A DNA stretch of 64,000 nt from Candidatus Altimarinota bacterium. GTDB lineage: Bacteria; Patescibacteriota; Gracilibacteria; UBA4473. A program made the position numbers and the translations under genes. The DNA lies in contig JAIPGI010000001.1 of the NCBI GenBank assembly GCA_021736215.1, positions 62,001 to 126,000 on the forward strand. Reading direction: 5' to 3'. Positions within the stretch are counted from its first letter, which is position 1; every line of letters starts with the position of its first letter. The notes beneath the pieces are model-generated. The model saw nothing but the letters and a program-made list of their open reading frames with translations, had not been told where the DNA came from and did no database searches. Shown piece by piece: positions 300-63,918 of this stretch.

Positions 300-3200
300 T
301 TAATTCTTAGTAATATCTAATAGAATTTTTTCTCCATCAATGTCCAATGTATCTCCTTCCGCGTCATGAATCACATCACCTCTCACGAGTTCTGTTGCCA
401 AAACTTCGTCCGCAATCATATTTCCAAAAAAGTTGAAAGCCGATTGTAAGAGAGGAGTTGCTGTTGCGTAATAAATCGTTATTCGATCGGAAACGTGAAA
501 ATCTTTTTGTTTTCGCATCTCCTGAATTGCACGAATAATCTCTCGAGCGTATCCCTCTATTTTTAGGGTTTCGGTAATTTCCGTGTCGAGGAGCACGACA
601 ACGCGAGAAGTAGCTTCTGCTTGCATCCCCTCTTTGCAAATAAATCCGATTTCATATTCTCCTAATTCCAAAATTTCTCCGAGAACATCCATTCGTCCCT
701 CCGATAGTTCTTTAAATTTCCCTTCTTTCCCCGCACGAATGAGATCTTGTACTTTTGCTCCAAGACGTGGCCCAACGGCCTTGGCGTTGACGCGAACAAT
801 CTTCTCCGCAACCCCCTTTGTAGAAGTCAGTACTTCTACTTCTTTGACATTGGCTTCTTCGCGAAGGATATCCAAATCGAGATTTATTTTTTCAGTCGTC
901 AAAAAACGCAATTTTCCCAAAGGTTGTCTCAGTTTTATTTTGGTATGAGCCCGAATACTTGCCGCCAGACCAACAATTTCACGAGAAAGATGAACTTTTC
1001 TTTCAGATTCTGGGTCAATCCAGTGTTTAAGTGAGGAGGGGAAAATTTCTAGATGGACCGACTCACTTCCTCCTAGGTTTTTATAAAGTTGTTCTGCAAA
1101 GAATGGGCACACGGGAGCTAAAAGCTTCGAGAGTGTCATCAAAACAAAATGCAGAGTTTCATATCCAGACTGCTTTTCTTCGTTCATCCCTTCTGCCCAA
1201 AACCGTCGTCGAGATCGACGCAGATACCAGTTATTGAGCTGATCAACAAATTCTGGAACGAGTCTCAATGCCCCCTCTAAATCAAACGTATCAAAATTCT
1301 TTCGGAATTTCCCAATCAGGGTTTGGGTTTCAGAAAGAATCCATTGATCGAGTTCTGTTTTGGCATTTGGAAGAGCAAAAAATAATTTATACATTCCTGT
1401 CTGCACCATGGGAACGTGTAAATAATCCTCAATACTCTTCACCTCATGAAGACTGGCTTCTATGGCTCGAATTGGATCGCCATGCGAAACGACAACAACT
1501 GTTTCCCCCTGATGAGTTCGGCTTATCTCATCAAAAAAAGATCTCATTCTTTTTTTCACGAATGAAGCCGGTTCTGTTGTCTTGTCTTGAAGGCGATCAT
1601 GAACCGTTCTAAATGGCTGTTTTTCCAAATCCCCAAAATAGAGTTCTTTTAATCGATTATCCGTTTGAATTTCTCCTAAAAATTTGGTTTTTTCTTTTAT
1701 AATTTGAGCCGTTTCTTGTGTTCTATAAAAAGGAGAAGCATAAAGAGCGTCTATTTTCCCAAAATTCTGAGCAGCTTTTGCTGCTTGGCGTTTCCCCGTA
1801 AGCGTCAGATGGTGAGGATTTTTTACTTCGCCAGAATAAATTTTAGCAACATTGTGATCCGCCTCTCCGTGCCGAACAAAAATAAATTTCGTAGGAGACC
1901 ATCCATCAATGTTGGCATAGGTTGAAAAAAATTGGTAGGTCGAGCGAAGAGGCAAGAGGACTGATTTTAATACTTCATCCACTCCTTTTTCGGAAAACCG
2001 CAAATTTTCTCCCCGTGCAACTGGGGAATTTAATAAATAAAATCTCATCGCATCAGCTCCGTATTTTTCAAAAATCAAATTCGGATCAGGATAATTTTTC
2101 TTTGATTTAGACATTTTATTCCCGTCTTCTGCCAAAACGATTCCATTTGTAATGACATTTTGGAAAACATTTTTCCCAAAAAGAGCGACTCCCAAAACAT
2201 GCAAAGTGTAGAACCACCCTCGCGTCTGATCGAGTCCCTCCGCAATAAAGTCTGCTGGACGAAATTTTTTGTCTCCAAACGGGTGATGGATAGATGCGTA
2301 AGGCATTGACCCCGACTCAAACCAACAGTCCAACACTTCGGGAATCCTTTTCATTATCCCCTGAGGGTTGAGGCGAGGAATACACTTAGGACATTTCCAA
2401 GAAAGATCATCAACAAAATGCTTATGCAAATCTTCTACTTTTTCACCAGAAAATTTTTCCAGTTCTTTACGAGAAGTAATTACTTGAACCTCTCCACACT
2501 GTTCACACCTCCACACGGGAATAAGTGCTCCCCAGTAACGATTCCTGCTAATAGCCCAATCCGGTGCTTCTTCAAGCATTTTCCCAAATCGCCCATCTCG
2601 AAGGTGAGACGGAATCCAATTAATTTTTTTATTCTGAGAAATAATTTCTTTTTTTATTTTTTGAATATTCACAAACCAAGTACGGACTCCCCGATACATA
2701 AGCGCACAATCCGTTCTCCAACAATGCGGATAGGAGTGTCGAACCTGAGAACGATGAAAGAGTTTTTCTCCCAAATGTTCCAGTACCCATGTATTGGCAT
2801 TTTTTTTGTCAGATCCTTCTACTTCTGGATCGGATCGAAAATACAACCCATCAAGTTCTGAAATGGCAGCTGAAAAATATCCATTTTCATCAATGGGATT
2901 TTCGAGTGGAGAAATATCGTTTTCTGCACATATCCGAGCATCGTCTTCTCCAAAATTCGGTGCCATATGGACAATTCCCGTTCCATCTTCTGCTCCGACA
3001 AAATCCCCTCCAAGCATTTTAAATGCATTTTTATGGTCTGGAAAAAATGGGAAAAGTGGTTTGTATTTTTCGCCAACAAGACTTTTCCCGAAACAAGATT
3101 CTTCTTCAGTCCAAAATCCTGCATAATTTCCGTCTTCGATAATTCCATACTTTTCTAAAACCTCGCGTCCAAGCCAATAAGCTTCTCCTGATTCTTCATT

Positions 3201-3998
3201 TCTCACTTTCACATATTCCAACTTCGGATTCACACACAACGCCAAATTTGATGGAAGTGTCCACGGAGTCGTGGTCCAGGCGAGGAAATATGTTTTCGAA
3301 CCCGGGTTCTGAGAATCCTTGAACCCGGGTTCGTTAGTAAGTTCAAACTTCACTGTCACCGCAGGGTCATCAATGTCTTTATAATTCAAATTCGCTTCAA
3401 AATTCGAAAGAGGACTCCCGAGCTTCGGAGAATAAGAAACTATTTTTTCTCCTTCATAAATTAATCCCTTTTTCCAAAGTTCTCCAAAAACCCACCATAC
3501 CGACTCCATGAAATCCGGATCCATGGTTTTGTAATCATTTTTGAAATCCACAAACCGCCCCATTCGCTCGACCGTTTCCTCCCATTGATCAGCACATCGC
3601 ATCACCACTGATCGGCAAAGTTCATTGAATTTCCCAACTCCCATTTTTTCAATTTCTGGTTTCCCCCCGATGTGGTGTTCTTTTTCTACCTGAAACTCCA
3701 CAGGAACTCCATGACAGTCCCAGCCCCATTTACGCTCAACTCGATACCCCTTCATAGTATAGTATCGAGGAATCACATCTTTGATGGCTCCTGCCAAAAT
3801 ATGTCCATAATGTGGAGTCCCCGTCGCAAACGGAGGTCCATCAAAAAATACAAATTCATTATGAGGAGATCGCCATTCAATAGTTTTTTCGAAAATTTGT
3901 TCTTTTTTCCAAAATTTCAAAATCTCTTTTTCGTTTTCAGAAATTGATTTTTGAGGGTCGATAACGGGAAATCTTTTTTTCATCATTTTTAAAATCAT
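300..3998 (-). CDS. ileS: Isoleucyl-tRNA synthetase with an inserted histidine-phosphatase domain
   Basis: IleRS charges tRNA-Ile in the cytoplasm. The HIGH-type motif HYGH is near residue 65, the editing domain follows, zinc-ligand Cys pairs (CEQC, CPKC) are near residues 505-560, and KMSKS is near 628. The protein has 1232 residues, longer than usual because about 175 residues (roughly 700-873) lie between the YANIDGW end of the catalytic part and the ELDQWILSE start of the anticodon-binding part. This insert is a complete histidine-phosphatase domain: RHGE at 709-712, an SPFYRTQET arginine, LKELYFGDLE, and SHGD with His839. A 35-bp palindromic element also adds residues within the editing region (nt 3298-3332). 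The start at 3998 is chosen because it follows a structured T-box-like leader; ATGs at 3986 and 3983 are alternatives. Confidence 0.97.
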   Translation of the reverse strand: MILKMMKKRFPVIDPQKSISENEKEILKFWKKEQIFEKTIEWRSPHNEFVFFDGPPFATGTPHYGHILAGAIKDVIPRYYTMKGYRVERKWGWDCHGVPVEFQVEKEHHIGGKPEIEKMGVGKFNELCRSVVMRCADQWEETVERMGRFVDFKNDYKTMDPDFMESVWWVFGELWKKGLIYEGEKIVSYSPKLGSPLSNFEANLNYKDIDDPAVTVKFELTNEPGFKDSQNPGSKTYFLAWTTTPWTLPSNLALCVNPKLEYVKVRNEESGEAYWLGREVLEKYGIIEDGNYAGFWTEEESCFGKSLVGEKYKPLFPFFPDHKNAFKMLGGDFVGAEDGTGIVHMAPNFGEDDARICAENDISPLENPIDENGYFSAAISELDGLYFRSDPEVEGSDKKNANTWVLEHLGEKLFHRSQVRHSYPHCWRTDCALMYRGVRTWFVNIQKIKKEIISQNKKINWIPSHLRDGRFGKMLEEAPDWAISRNRYWGALIPVWRCEQCGEVQVITSRKELEKFSGEKVEDLHKHFVDDLSWKCPKCIPRLNPQGIMKRIPEVLDCWFESGSMPYASIHHPFGDKKFRPADFIAEGLDQTRGWFYTLHVLGVALFGKNVFQNVITNGIVLAEDGNKMSKSKKNYPDPNLIFEKYGADAMRFYLLNSPVARGENLRFSEKGVDEVLKSVLLPLRSTYQFFSTYANIDGWSPTKFIFVRHGEADHNVAKIYSGEVKNPHHLTLTGKRQAAKAAQNFGKIDALYASPFYRTQETAQIIKEKTKFLGEIQTDNRLKELYFGDLEKQPFRTVHDRLQDKTTEPASFVKKRMRSFFDEISRTHQGETVVVVSHGDPIRAIEASLHEVKSIEDYLHVPMVQTGMYKLFFALPNAKTELDQWILSETQTLIGKFRKNFDTFDLEGALRLVPEFVDQLNNWYLRRSRRRFWAEGMNEEKQSGYETLHFVLMTLSKLLAPVCPFFAEQLYKNLGGSESVHLEIFPSSLKHWIDPESERKVHLSREIVGLAASIRAHTKIKLRQPLGKLRFLTTEKINLDLDILREEANVKEVEVLTSTKGVAEKIVRVNAKAVGPRLGAKVQDLIRAGKEGKFKELSEGRMDVLGEILELGEYEIGFICKEGMQAEATSRVVVLLDTEITETLKIEGYAREIIRAIQEMRKQKDFHVSDRITIYYATATPLLQSAFNFFGNMIADEVLATELVRGDVIHDAEGDTLDIDGEKILLDITKN
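3298..3332. repeat. In-frame palindromic element, family A (copy in ileS)
   Basis: Two copies of the perfect 12-bp palindrome GAACCCGGGTTC flank an 11-nt spacer, 35 bp in all. It is read in frame on the minus strand and gives EPGFKDSQNPGS in IleRS. Matching elements are in the methyltransferase gene (54328-54362) and in valS (61544-61577). Confidence 0.85.
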
Positions 3999-60005: not shown

Positions 60006-60542
60006 CTACTTTCCTCCCCCAAGTAAATCATAAATCTCATTTTCGATCCTTAAGAGTCGGAATTCTGCCATTTTGAGAGCAAGAACTCGGTCAATGTCAT
60101 GTTTTTTTCGATGCTGAATTTCAAGAATTCGCTCTTTGATATCGGTGATTTCTTGGTTGTGATCACAGACAAGGTCCGCAAAAATAACAATCTTATTTTC
60201 AAGAGTTGTGGGGAGATAGGCTTTTTCATCGATTCCCTCAAGAAGATGAATTTCGTATACATATCCGTGCAAAACGATATCGGCAATGTCTGACATCCCT
60301 TCTTTTTGCAAAATTTCAACAGAGTTAATTTCATGATGTCCGGTAGGAATGCCATATCCTATATCATGGAGGAGTCCAGCGAGACGGACTTTTTCGGGAT
60401 TTACTTTCTGCTTGGGATACTTCGTTTTAATTTTCGTCGCCGTACGAAAGGCAATCTCAGCCACTCCTTCGGAATGACGAATCCTTTTTTCATCAGAGAT
60501 ATATTTTTTGAGAAGGGCTAGCCCTTGAGCATAGGGAATCAT
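60006..60542 (-). CDS. HD-domain protein, probable metal-dependent phosphohydrolase
   Basis: 178 residues. The HD signature is complete: His in RIRHSEGVAEIAFR, the HD pair in LAGLLHDIGYG, His in HHEINSVEIL, and the distal Asp in FADLVCDHNQ. HD enzymes of this size cleave nucleotides or cyclic dinucleotides, or remove phosphates from nucleosides; the substrate is unknown. It stands alone between two repeat elements, convergent with radA and upstream of the valS 3' end. Confidence 0.85.
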   Translation of the reverse strand: MIPYAQGLALLKKYISDEKRIRHSEGVAEIAFRTATKIKTKYPKQKVNPEKVRLAGLLHDIGYGIPTGHHEINSVEILQKEGMSDIADIVLHGYVYEIHLLEGIDEKAYLPTTLENKIVIFADLVCDHNQEITDIKERILEIQHRKKHDIDRVLALKMAEFRLLRIENEIYDLLGGGK

Positions 60543-60822: not shown

Positions 60823-63800
60823 TTAAGAGAGTTTTTTCAGTTTTTCTTTCGCATCGGATAGCTCTTTTTTTGTTTGATCAACGAGAGATCTTGGTGCTTT
60901 TTCGATATAAGCTTTATTTTTGAGACGGGCATCAAGTCCTTTTATATGGGCTTCTAGAGCAGTTTTTTCTTTCTCGATTCGCCCTTCGTCCACAGGAACA
61001 TCGATAAAAATCTCAAAACCCCCAACAACAATTTTTACAGCTTTTTTCGTATCAACTGAGCCTTGTTTTCCCCCTGCCAAAGTCTCAATAAGGGCAATCA
61101 TTGGGGAATCGGGTTTTCCCGCAATCTGAATAGATAATTTTTCTTTGGGATTTAATTTTTTTTCGGAGCGAACGCGGCGAATTTCTGTAACAATATTCTG
61201 AATTTCTTCAAAAACCTTCTCAGCTTTTTTATCTTCGAAATCGATTTTTGGAACCGTTTGTTCAATAAGAAATCCCTCGCTTCCGAGCTCTTTCCACAGA
61301 GTTTCCGTGACAAAAGGACACAAGGGATGCACGAGTTTCAGAATCTCCAAAAACACATATTTCAAAAATTCAGGGTTCGGTTCCACCTTACTCGCTTCAA
61401 TATACCAGTCACAGAATTCATCCCACACAAAGTGATAAATTTTGTCTCCAGCGGCGGATATTTCGTATTTTTGCAAGTATGTTGCAATTTCTCCAGAAAC
61501 CCGCGCTAGGCGCGATAAAATCCATTTATCAGCCAAGCTTTTACAACCCGGGTTCTTGGATTTTTGAACCCGGGTTGAGAGAGTGGAAGTTTGCATCTTC
61601 ACAAACCTCCCCGCATTCCAGAGTTTATTGACGAAATTTCTATATCCAGAAATTTTTCCTTTTCCGATGGGAATGGGGTTCTCAGGGCTCGTTCCGACCA
61701 CAAGACTTAGTCTTACCGCATCGGCGCCAAACTCATCAATCATATCGATGGGATCGATCCCATTGCCTTTGGATTTCGACATTTTTTGTCCTTTCTCATC
61801 GCAGACCAAGCCATGTAAATATACCGTATGAAAAGGATATTTTCCCGTGGCATATCGACCAAACATAATCATTCTCGCGACCCAGAAAAATAAAATATCC
61901 CATCCCGTCTCCAAGACATCCGTTGGATAAAACTTCTGATAATCAGGAGATTCTGTGTCAGGCCAGCCCAAAGTTGAGAATGGCCATAGAGCCGAAGAAA
62001 ACCAGGTATCTAAGGTATCAGGATCTTGATGCAATTTCTTCCCTTCTGGGAACTTGAGGAATCGCATGGTGCGAAGGTGCGCATTCCCAATACTCCATCC
62101 TTGGCAAAATTCATCAAACCCTTCGCCAGACTTTTCCTCATGCAGGGCAAATAAAACCCCTAACATCGCTCCATGAGAAATAACAAGAACATTTTTTTCT
62201 TTCGCGAGTTTTTCAAGGACACCTTTTCCTCGGGAAATTAAATGATCAAAGCTTTCTCGACTTGTTCCTTCTTTTACCTTGGTGATTTTATCCATCAGGG
62301 TTACATGAGTTCTCCCAAATGTTTTTTCGATAGACTTTCCTTCCAAGTGTCCAAAGTCTATTTCATGAAGTTCTGGCCAGATTTCTAAATTTTTAATCCC
62401 TAATTCTTTTTGTATGATTTCGGCGGTTTCTCGTGCTCGATCAAGATTGGAACAAATAATTTTCTTAATTTTTTTATGCTTCGCTTCGTGAGCGAGTTTC
62501 AGAGCTTGAGCGCGTCCCTTTTCTGTCAGGGAGACCTCTTTGGTTGATCCCTGCATGATGCCCTTGGCATTCCATTCACTCTCTCCGTGCCGAGCGAGAA
62601 AAACAATATTTTCCTCAGGAATATGAATCGTTCCTTTTTCGTCATACCAGACGGGAATCCGATGTCCCCACCAAATCTGACGAGAGATACACCAATCTCT
62701 CAAGTTATCAATCCATTGGAAATAAGTTTTTTCGAATCGTTCAGGAATGATTTTGACATCGCCCTTGCGAACAGCGTCTTGCGTCAATTTTTTGAGAGTT
62801 GTTTTTTCCCCCGTCCATTTGTCTGTAAATTCTTTCTCGACGCTCACAAACCACTGGGGAGAAAGCATGGGTTCGACCACCGTTTCTGATCGATAACAAA
62901 ACCCGATGTTGTGGGTATGGGGAACTTTTTTTACAAACCACTGGCTCGGCTTCGTGAGTTCTACGCGACAATGTTCTCGCGTTTTTCCGTGAAATTCTTT
63001 GGGTACTTCGGTAATAGGGAGCATTGTTCCATCAAACCCAATCACCTGAAGTTTTGGGAGATTATGTCTCTCTCCAATCTCAAAATCGTTTGGATCATGA
63101 GCAGGGGTGACCTTGAGAGTGGCTGTTCCAAAACTTAAGTCTACATGCTCATCAGCAATAACTGGAATTTCTCGTCCAGAAAAAGGAACAAGAACTTTCT
63201 TTCCCACAAATTTTTTCGCTCGTTTATCTTTTGGATGGAGAGCAACGGCCGTATCGCCAAAAATAGTTTCAGGACGAGTTGTAGCGACTTCCAAATACTC
63301 CTTTGGGCTATCAGTGAAGAAATATTTATAGTGATAGAGACCTCCTTCTACTTCTCGATACTCCACTTCATCATCCGATAACACTGATTGAGCTCCTACA
63401 GACCAATTAATCATCCTGTGTCCACGAACGATGAGACCATCCTCATAGAGCATCTTGAAGATAGTATTGACCGCATAATTTCTCTCATCATCAAAGGTAT
63501 ACGCTTCTCTCGACCAATCGAGCCATGACCCCATTTTTTTGATCTGATGGACGATTCGATCGTGTTTTTCTTGGGCGAATTTTTTACACTCTTCTAAAAA
63601 TTTCTCACGACTCATTTCTTCTCGATTCTGCATACCGAGGTGCTTGAGCACGACATTTTCGGTGGCGATAGCGGCATGATCGGTTCCGGGGACCCAGAGA
63701 ACTTCATGCCCTGTCATTTTTTTATACCGGATCATGGTGTCCTCAATCGCCAGCATCGCGGCGTGTCCGAGGTGGAGTTGTCCTGTAACATTTGGCGGGG

Positions 63801-63918
63801 GAAGGGGAATGGTAAATTGTTTTTTCTGTGACGTATTGTTTGCATTCATAAGTTTCGCGTCTTCCCAAGATTGATAAATCTTGTCTTCGGTTGATTTGTG
63901 ATCATAGGCTTTATCCAT
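60823..63918 (-). CDS. valS: Valyl-tRNA synthetase with an inserted histidine-phosphatase domain
   Basis: ValRS charges tRNA-Val and edits threonine. The HIGH motif is HLGHAAM near residue 46, and KMSKS is in GQKMSKSKGNG near residue 707. A coiled C-terminal arm ends the 1031-residue protein. A complete histidine-phosphatase domain of about 185 residues (roughly 435-622) sits between HRIPVWYDEKGT and HQDPDTLDTWFSSALWPFS, within the catalytic domain. It carries RHGE at 443-446, SNLDRARETA, LHEIDFGHLEG and SHGA with His582. Other ValRS have only a short loop or zinc ribbon there. A palindromic element adds residues after the KMSKS region (61544-61577). A terminator/antiterminator leader lies upstream. 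Confidence 0.97.
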   Translation of the reverse strand: MDKAYDHKSTEDKIYQSWEDAKLMNANNTSQKKQFTIPLPPPNVTGQLHLGHAAMLAIEDTMIRYKKMTGHEVLWVPGTDHAAIATENVVLKHLGMQNREEMSREKFLEECKKFAQEKHDRIVHQIKKMGSWLDWSREAYTFDDERNYAVNTIFKMLYEDGLIVRGHRMINWSVGAQSVLSDDEVEYREVEGGLYHYKYFFTDSPKEYLEVATTRPETIFGDTAVALHPKDKRAKKFVGKKVLVPFSGREIPVIADEHVDLSFGTATLKVTPAHDPNDFEIGERHNLPKLQVIGFDGTMLPITEVPKEFHGKTREHCRVELTKPSQWFVKKVPHTHNIGFCYRSETVVEPMLSPQWFVSVEKEFTDKWTGEKTTLKKLTQDAVRKGDVKIIPERFEKTYFQWIDNLRDWCISRQIWWGHRIPVWYDEKGTIHIPEENIVFLARHGESEWNAKGIMQGSTKEVSLTEKGRAQALKLAHEAKHKKIKKIICSNLDRARETAEIIQKELGIKNLEIWPELHEIDFGHLEGKSIEKTFGRTHVTLMDKITKVKEGTSRESFDHLISRGKGVLEKLAKEKNVLVISHGAMLGVLFALHEEKSGEGFDEFCQGWSIGNAHLRTMRFLKFPEGKKLHQDPDTLDTWFSSALWPFSTLGWPDTESPDYQKFYPTDVLETGWDILFFWVARMIMFGRYATGKYPFHTVYLHGLVCDEKGQKMSKSKGNGIDPIDMIDEFGADAVRLSLVVGTSPENPIPIGKGKISGYRNFVNKLWNAGRFVKMQTSTLSTRVQKSKNPGCKSLADKWILSRLARVSGEIATYLQKYEISAAGDKIYHFVWDEFCDWYIEASKVEPNPEFLKYVFLEILKLVHPLCPFVTETLWKELGSEGFLIEQTVPKIDFEDKKAEKVFEEIQNIVTEIRRVRSEKKLNPKEKLSIQIAGKPDSPMIALIETLAGGKQGSVDTKKAVKIVVGGFEIFIDVPVDEGRIEKEKTALEAHIKGLDARLKNKAYIEKAPRSLVDQTKKELSDAKEKLKKLS
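61544..61577. repeat. In-frame palindromic element, family A (copy in valS)
   Basis: AACCCGGGTT cores 10 nt apart, with one end base changed on each outer side. It encodes STRVQKSKNPGC, so its first half is read in a different frame from the ileS copy. Confidence 0.8.

Follow-up and report, generated by a model that had tools for sequence, protein, structure and literature searches.

Histidine phosphatase domains inserted in the valyl- and isoleucyl-tRNA synthetases of a Gracilibacteria genome and its relatives

Introduction

Few proteins are as strongly conserved across life as the aminoacyl-tRNA synthetases, and an additional domain in one of them is usually the sign of a new connection between translation and another process, such as editing, signalling, or immunity. 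The Patescibacteria, the phylum considered here, have very small genomes and live on other microbes. Enzyme domains within the synthetase fold are not new in themselves. The CP1 editing domain, which acts on aminoacyl-tRNA, is universal in the isoleucyl, valyl, and leucyl enzymes (IleRS, ValRS, and LeuRS), and lineage-specific insert domains are treated in the part of PMC13114784 considered here, which deals with insertion-only domains and in which histidine phosphatases are not mentioned. One architecture in which IleRS has an extra enzyme domain is already recognised by NCBI (NF040702, ileS_w_GNAT). Described members of branch 1 of the histidine phosphatase (HP) superfamily (PF00300; PhoE, PspA, CobC, F26BPase, 9mmh) are free proteins, and in the mycobacterial bifunctional RNase HI/acid phosphatase (PRK07238) an HP is fused to an RNA-acting enzyme. 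Searches of the open-access literature turned up no paper that describes an HP within a synthetase.

The interrupted synthetases and their genome

The window analysed here is a stretch of 64,000 nt from a Candidatus Altimarinota genome (contig JAIPGI010000001.1, positions 62,001 to 126,000). The bacterium is a Patescibacterium of the class Gracilibacteria, and among relatives with a name the closest is JALVIB, a Candidatus Gracilibacteria MAG. The window includes a valS and an ileS gene, each with an inserted HP (Table 1), and the fused enzymes are the sole ValRS and IleRS of the genome. The ValRS scores well above the cut-off of its equivalog PRK05729 (988.7 vs. 704 bits), and in a structure match of the model its body resembles Thermus thermophilus ValRS (1gax) over 775 residues (Z 42.7, 40% identity). 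The editing motif TTRPET (residue 213) is intact, as are the HIGH-type and KMSKS motifs, found by a regex check that was used for the window protein alone.

The ValRS insert matches PF00300 (His_Phos_1) at residues 439–606 (window 62101–62604; E = 2.1e-36) with 125.8 bits, above the gathering cut-off of 21.7. It is bordered by WWGHRIPVWY on one side and LDTWFSS on the other, and flanked by IWWGHRIPVWYDEKG and QDPDTLDTWFSSALWPFS. The initial annotation had placed an HP insertion at 62045–62616, just ahead of DPDTLDTWFSSALWPFS; these limits are correct to within a few residues of the fold, and the position is as it had been given. Directly downstream of valS, at 60006–60542 on the minus strand, is an ORF for an HD-domain protein, no homologue of which was found beside ValRS in the relatives fetched.

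In IleRS the HP lies past the KMSKS part and ahead of the anticodon-binding domain, in agreement with its earlier placement after the catalytic domain. The two window HPs share about 33% identity over 166 aligned positions. A PF00300 search of the whole 1.01-Mb genome found these two domains and a free, ordinary dPGM of 245 aa, and nothing in MetRS or GluRS, from which the domain had been reported missing, in LeuRS (839 aa, uninterrupted), in the other synthetases, or in the remaining genes.

Table 1. Positions in the window of the two interrupted synthetase genes, their inserted domains, and the main motifs
Feature	Position	Strand	Remarks
ileS, isoleucyl-tRNA synthetase interrupted by an HP domain	300..3998	minus	1232 aa
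Inserted HP domain of IleRS, site D	1368..1892	minus	residues 703–877; PF00300 E = 9.8e-31
valS, valyl-tRNA synthetase interrupted by an HP domain	60823..63918	minus	1031 aa; single uninterrupted ORF
Inserted HP domain of ValRS	62053..62610	minus	residues 437–622; zinc-ribbon hairpin tip; from Pfam, alignment with insert-free ValRS, fold, and PDB match
RHG motif with nucleophilic His	62584..62592	minus	residue 444; ValRS insert
SHG motif with second catalytic His	62170..62178	minus	residue 582; ValRS insert
HIGH-type motif HLGH of ValRS	63763..63774	minus	residue 49; intact
KMSKS motif of ValRS	61771..61785	minus	residue 712, past the insert; intact

Catalytic residues, fold, and selection

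Inserted HPs from across the phylum were aligned (95 domains, median column identity 35%). The residues R-H-R-H do not vary among the 95, and R-H-R-E-H is complete in 91, the acidic E being lost in the other four, two of which, in ValRS, have G or T instead. Conservation within the insert is highest at the catalytic residues, and both window HPs hold all five (R-H(G), R, E/D, H). This conservation rules out a decayed insert, which the initial annotation had named as a possible objection.

Modelled alone, the ValRS HP has a pLDDT of 94.4; within the full ValRS model its core is mostly at 83–95, with the cap and the C-terminal part weaker. The best PDB match of the HP model is 9mmh, a riboflavin biosynthesis phosphatase (Z 23.1 over 175 residues), followed by PspA 4ij5, PhoE 1h2e, and CobC 6e4b; these four are at Z 20–23, and the solved HPs matched span Z 19–23 overall. 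By sequence, PDB matches are spread over F26BPase, PhoE, PspA, and CobC and include no synthetase. No NCBIfam HP equivalog or profile of a characterised subfamily reached its cut-off with the window HPs: alpha-ribazole phosphatase CobC (TIGR03162) gave 82.4 bits, below 162.9; phosphoserine phosphatase PspA (NF045917) 56.7, below 350; and the archaeal-type 2,3-bisphosphoglycerate-dependent phosphoglycerate mutase (NF038349) 80.3, below 225. Because none does, the substrate is not one that can be read from homology. NF040702 matched the window IleRS at 312.5 bits vs. the 1999 needed, through its synthetase part alone. The motifs and the model identify the insert as a branch 1 histidine (RHG) phosphatase domain that is active-site-complete and predicted to be catalytically competent.

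For a close pair in which dS is unsaturated (0.50), dN/dS is 0.06 for the HP and 0.08 for the synthetase body; for the window IleRS HP and that of a congener it is 0.16, a value to be read with dS saturated. It is concluded that purifying selection maintains both insertions as enzymes and that they are not inert loops. The initial annotation had proposed a shared selective reason for the two. The recurrence of the insertions, the 91 complete catalytic sets, and the low dN/dS all support such a shared reason, whatever the selected property may be.

Insertion sites

When the window ValRS is aligned with ValRS of Bacillota and Adiutrix that have no insert, its HP falls at the position of their zinc-ribbon hairpin (WYCxxCG...CPKCG). 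The Cys knuckles that flank this site in other ValRS are lost in the window protein, and in a relative (L067) both are retained, one on either side of the HP; from this pattern, entry at the hairpin tip is concluded. Loss of the knuckles would also fit a non-catalytic structural spacer that replaced the zinc ribbon at the ValRS site. This reading is very improbable: the conservation of the catalytic residues above all others largely refutes it, L067 keeps its knuckles, and the IleRS insert at site D replaces nothing.

Four sites were distinguished in IleRS. Site A, at the zinc-ribbon tip, is the equivalent of the ValRS site and the commonest in relatives; site B is directly ahead of LDCWFES; site C is between HYPF and FPADFIAEG; and site D, that of the window IleRS, is at the junction of the catalytic and anticodon-binding domains. 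Some IleRS have two HPs (A+B, A+D, or C+D), and that of G243, a member of the window's family, has three, at B, C, and D. Across the phylum there are at least 95 inserted HPs, at these four IleRS sites, at one ValRS site, and once in UvrB. The contrast drawn initially between different sites in the two synthetases therefore describes the window genome and does not carry over to most relatives, where the IleRS HP is at the ValRS-equivalent position and may be one of two or three.

Distribution in the phylum and beyond

Samples of 287 genomes from the phylum and 145 from the class were searched, the counts of HPs in frames of >700 aa being lower bounds. Those of these HPs that were fetched and typed belong to IleRS or ValRS, with UvrB the single exception. 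The window's family comprises 20 genomes from 15 genera. All 20 have an HP within a synthetase-sized frame, and fetching and typing of the loci verified it for IleRS in 19 and for ValRS in 16. The four genomes in which a ValRS HP was not seen are JALVIB (G333), where it has been lost, two assemblies that are 70–74% complete, and G361, where none was found. The majority of Patescibacteria ValRS are uninterrupted, so that the ValRS insert, frequent within the window's family, has a patchy distribution in the rest of the phylum.

Outside the phylum, no interrupted IleRS was found among 138 Desulfobacterota genomes (a few of them partly assembled) and 29 mostly Bacillota genomes, and no ValRS insert in 79 loci of other phyla, with lengths of 2.6–2.7 kb. 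These insert-free enzymes, about 160 IleRS and the 79 ValRS, rule out a ubiquitous bacterial domain, the other objection that had been foreseen.

Sequencing artefact is likewise ruled out, because the same architecture, free of stops, recurs in dozens of independent assemblies. An intein, a mobile element, or an assembly artefact could also give an in-frame interruption of an essential gene, but the insert is a compact HP in which Pfam recognises no splicing domain, dozens of genera have it in assemblies made independently, and its retention in the family is vertical, so that an origin of this kind is scarcely credible.

Phylogeny of the inserted domains

A tree of 140 inserted and free HP domains sorts largely by insertion site, with 17 changes (minimum 7, shuffled mean 82). 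The site-V clade that includes the window ValRS HP has 14 members (98/94), and the site-D clade that includes the IleRS HP has 11 (98/89); each clade is in its own half of the tree, and free HPs separate the two. The different sites and separate clades lend good support to two separate insertions, as had been suggested at the outset. A single origin of the two domains is unfavoured by the trees, and a single clade of site-V and site-D domains is not rejected by the AU test (p = 0.276), so that the HP may have been copied from one synthetase to the other; two insertion events are needed in any case.

On the tree of ValRS bodies the HP is ancestral to the window's family and was lost once, in JALVIB and its lineage. 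The ValRS and IleRS insertions are both old in this family. The window ValRS HP (62053–62610) and its counterpart in G371, of the same genus (L154), are just 36% identical, with bodies at 71%. This probably reflects differential loss of two old tandem copies, since several relatives hold tandem HPs at this site.

Other inserted enzymes

Other small hydrolases and transferases are inserted at similar places in relatives, where they are found in all three of the class Ia synthetases that edit (IleRS, ValRS, and LeuRS). There are HAD and serine hydrolase inserts in the ValRS of G229, a serine hydrolase in the IleRS of G394, GNAT inserts in the IleRS of G046, G383, and G361, a NUDIX insert in that of G291, and DUF559 inserts in the IleRS of G338 and the ValRS of JALVIB. 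Some assemblages are larger. The G361 IleRS (L230, 1805 aa; also of the window's family) has two MuF_C-like (BECR-nuclease-like) domains besides its GNAT and a site-D HP, and an Absconditabacteria-like, TGA-recoded IleRS (L245:3-5000, minus strand, code 25) of at least 1666 aa has NUDIX, serine hydrolase, DUF559, and HP domains. In LeuRS, at least seven genomes of the class (L237, L238, L239, L240, L241, L242, L244) have an in-frame serine hydrolase (PF06821, GHSLG motif); it is located just ahead of the editing domain, between YAERLLxDL and WPxKIKxMQRNWIG, and G243 is among the genomes with it.

Interruptions are also found in other proteins of G291, where UvrB (L170, 1125 aa) has an HP and a serine hydrolase and UvrC (L243:2359-4899) a serine hydrolase. 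The DUF559 nuclease-like inserts in synthetases (L073:4001-7291, plus strand; L231) are flanked by short repeat peptides (SPLAPLIEGG..., SPPDKGDLGG), a sequence feature that suggests mobile DNA. Further HP fusions in the phylum (L060, L061, L063) are with a VTT membrane domain, with NUDIX, and with a 2-hydroxyacid dehydrogenase resembling D-3-phosphoglycerate dehydrogenase.

Possible roles

The reading favoured here, to which a probability of roughly 55% is given, is that the HP is an active phosphatase module tethered to the synthetase, inserted separately in ValRS and IleRS and kept by selection; its activity, the advantage of tethering, and the class of substrate are the parts that we infer. 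The HP's own pocket would form a phosphohistidine and dephosphorylate something that is produced, bound, or encountered at ValRS or IleRS. Candidates are a by-product that bears phosphate, the 3' end of a damaged tRNA, or an inhibitor resembling an aminoacyl-nucleotide, and the synthetase would keep charging tRNA while the tethered domain works. The exact geometry of the HP seems unimportant, because five different attachment sites are in use. The otherwise complete synthetases, the specificity for IleRS and ValRS as hosts, the clades by site, the family-wide retention, and the other small hydrolases and transferases inserted in IleRS, ValRS, and LeuRS all argue for a tethered enzyme; that one lineage survives without the ValRS HP, and that four of the 95 inserts lack the acidic E, argue against it.

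The multiplicity of sites (four in IleRS, one in ValRS) and the other types of inserted domain also fit cargo in permissive loops. Whole small enzymes (HP, serine hydrolase, NUDIX, GNAT, HAD, DUF559) would then have been captured by gene-in-gene fusion where these large class Ia enzymes tolerate insertion, at hairpin tips and at the junctions between domains, keeping metabolic jobs of their own, with the synthetase as a carrier that guarantees their expression. The inserted families are very unlike one another, with up to four per IleRS; the borders of the DUF559 inserts resemble those of mobile DNA; and the UvrB and UvrC inserts of G291 mean that synthetases are not the sole hosts, a point against the tethered enzyme as well. 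However, HPs are almost exclusively in IleRS and ValRS despite the existence of larger proteins, they recur across many families of the phylum and are doubled or tripled within one enzyme, and several genomes also keep free HPs. Simple carriage is possible, if on balance unlikely.

A replacement for a missing pyrophosphatase was also considered, in which the HP would pull aminoacylation forward in cells that have no normal pyrophosphatase. The window genome indeed has no soluble Ppa, and in the class 97 of 140 genomes lack this enzyme. Among the 20 genomes of the family, however, each has one known type (Ppa in five; membrane H+-PPase in eight, the window's own included; DHHA2 in seven), in a complementary pattern, and HP-synthetases coexist with all three. 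Since no genome of the family lacks a standard enzyme, the idea was rejected as very unlikely. That three unrelated pyrophosphatases substitute for one another among the genomes of a single family is an observation in its own right.

A broader and rather doubtful proposal takes IleRS, ValRS, and LeuRS of Gracilibacteria and other Patescibacteria as platforms that repeatedly gain small clean-up enzymes in their surface loops, forming a tethered system that would destroy aminoacyl-nucleotide inhibitors, misactivated intermediates, or the ends of damaged tRNAs on site. The self-immunity enzymes of microcin C producers are an acetyltransferase, a serine peptidase, and a phosphoramidase. By analogy, and just as tentatively, the set of HP, HAD and NUDIX hydrolases, serine hydrolases, and acetyltransferases might perform similar chemistry, but within the target enzyme.

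Comparison with known systems

The window ValRS keeps the body and the catalytic and editing motifs of bacterial ValRS (1gax) and differs from it in a phosphatase of about 190 residues that replaces the zinc-ribbon tip. The inserted HP is like members of branch 1 in fold, in the arrangement RHG...R...E...H, and in size, with 24–30% identity to its best PDB matches (Z 20–23), but it is embedded in a tRNA synthetase and fits no characterised subfamily. In PRK07238 the partner is different and the fusion terminal, and the window proteins score below its cut-off; they are also far below that of NF040702, where the extra domain is GNAT and not a phosphatase. CP1 and the lineage-specific inserts (PMC13114784, as far as considered here) are likewise enzyme domains within a synthetase, whereas the HP insert is restricted in distribution and phosphatase-like.

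As an accessory domain inserted in a synthetase, the HP is of a known kind. A phosphatase that looks active has been inserted again and again in one pair of paralogues, at five sites in all, and a large part of the phylum keeps it with an undamaged catalytic set. Either some local, as yet undescribed dephosphorylation is required for translation in these cells, or their synthetases serve to carry whole enzymes.
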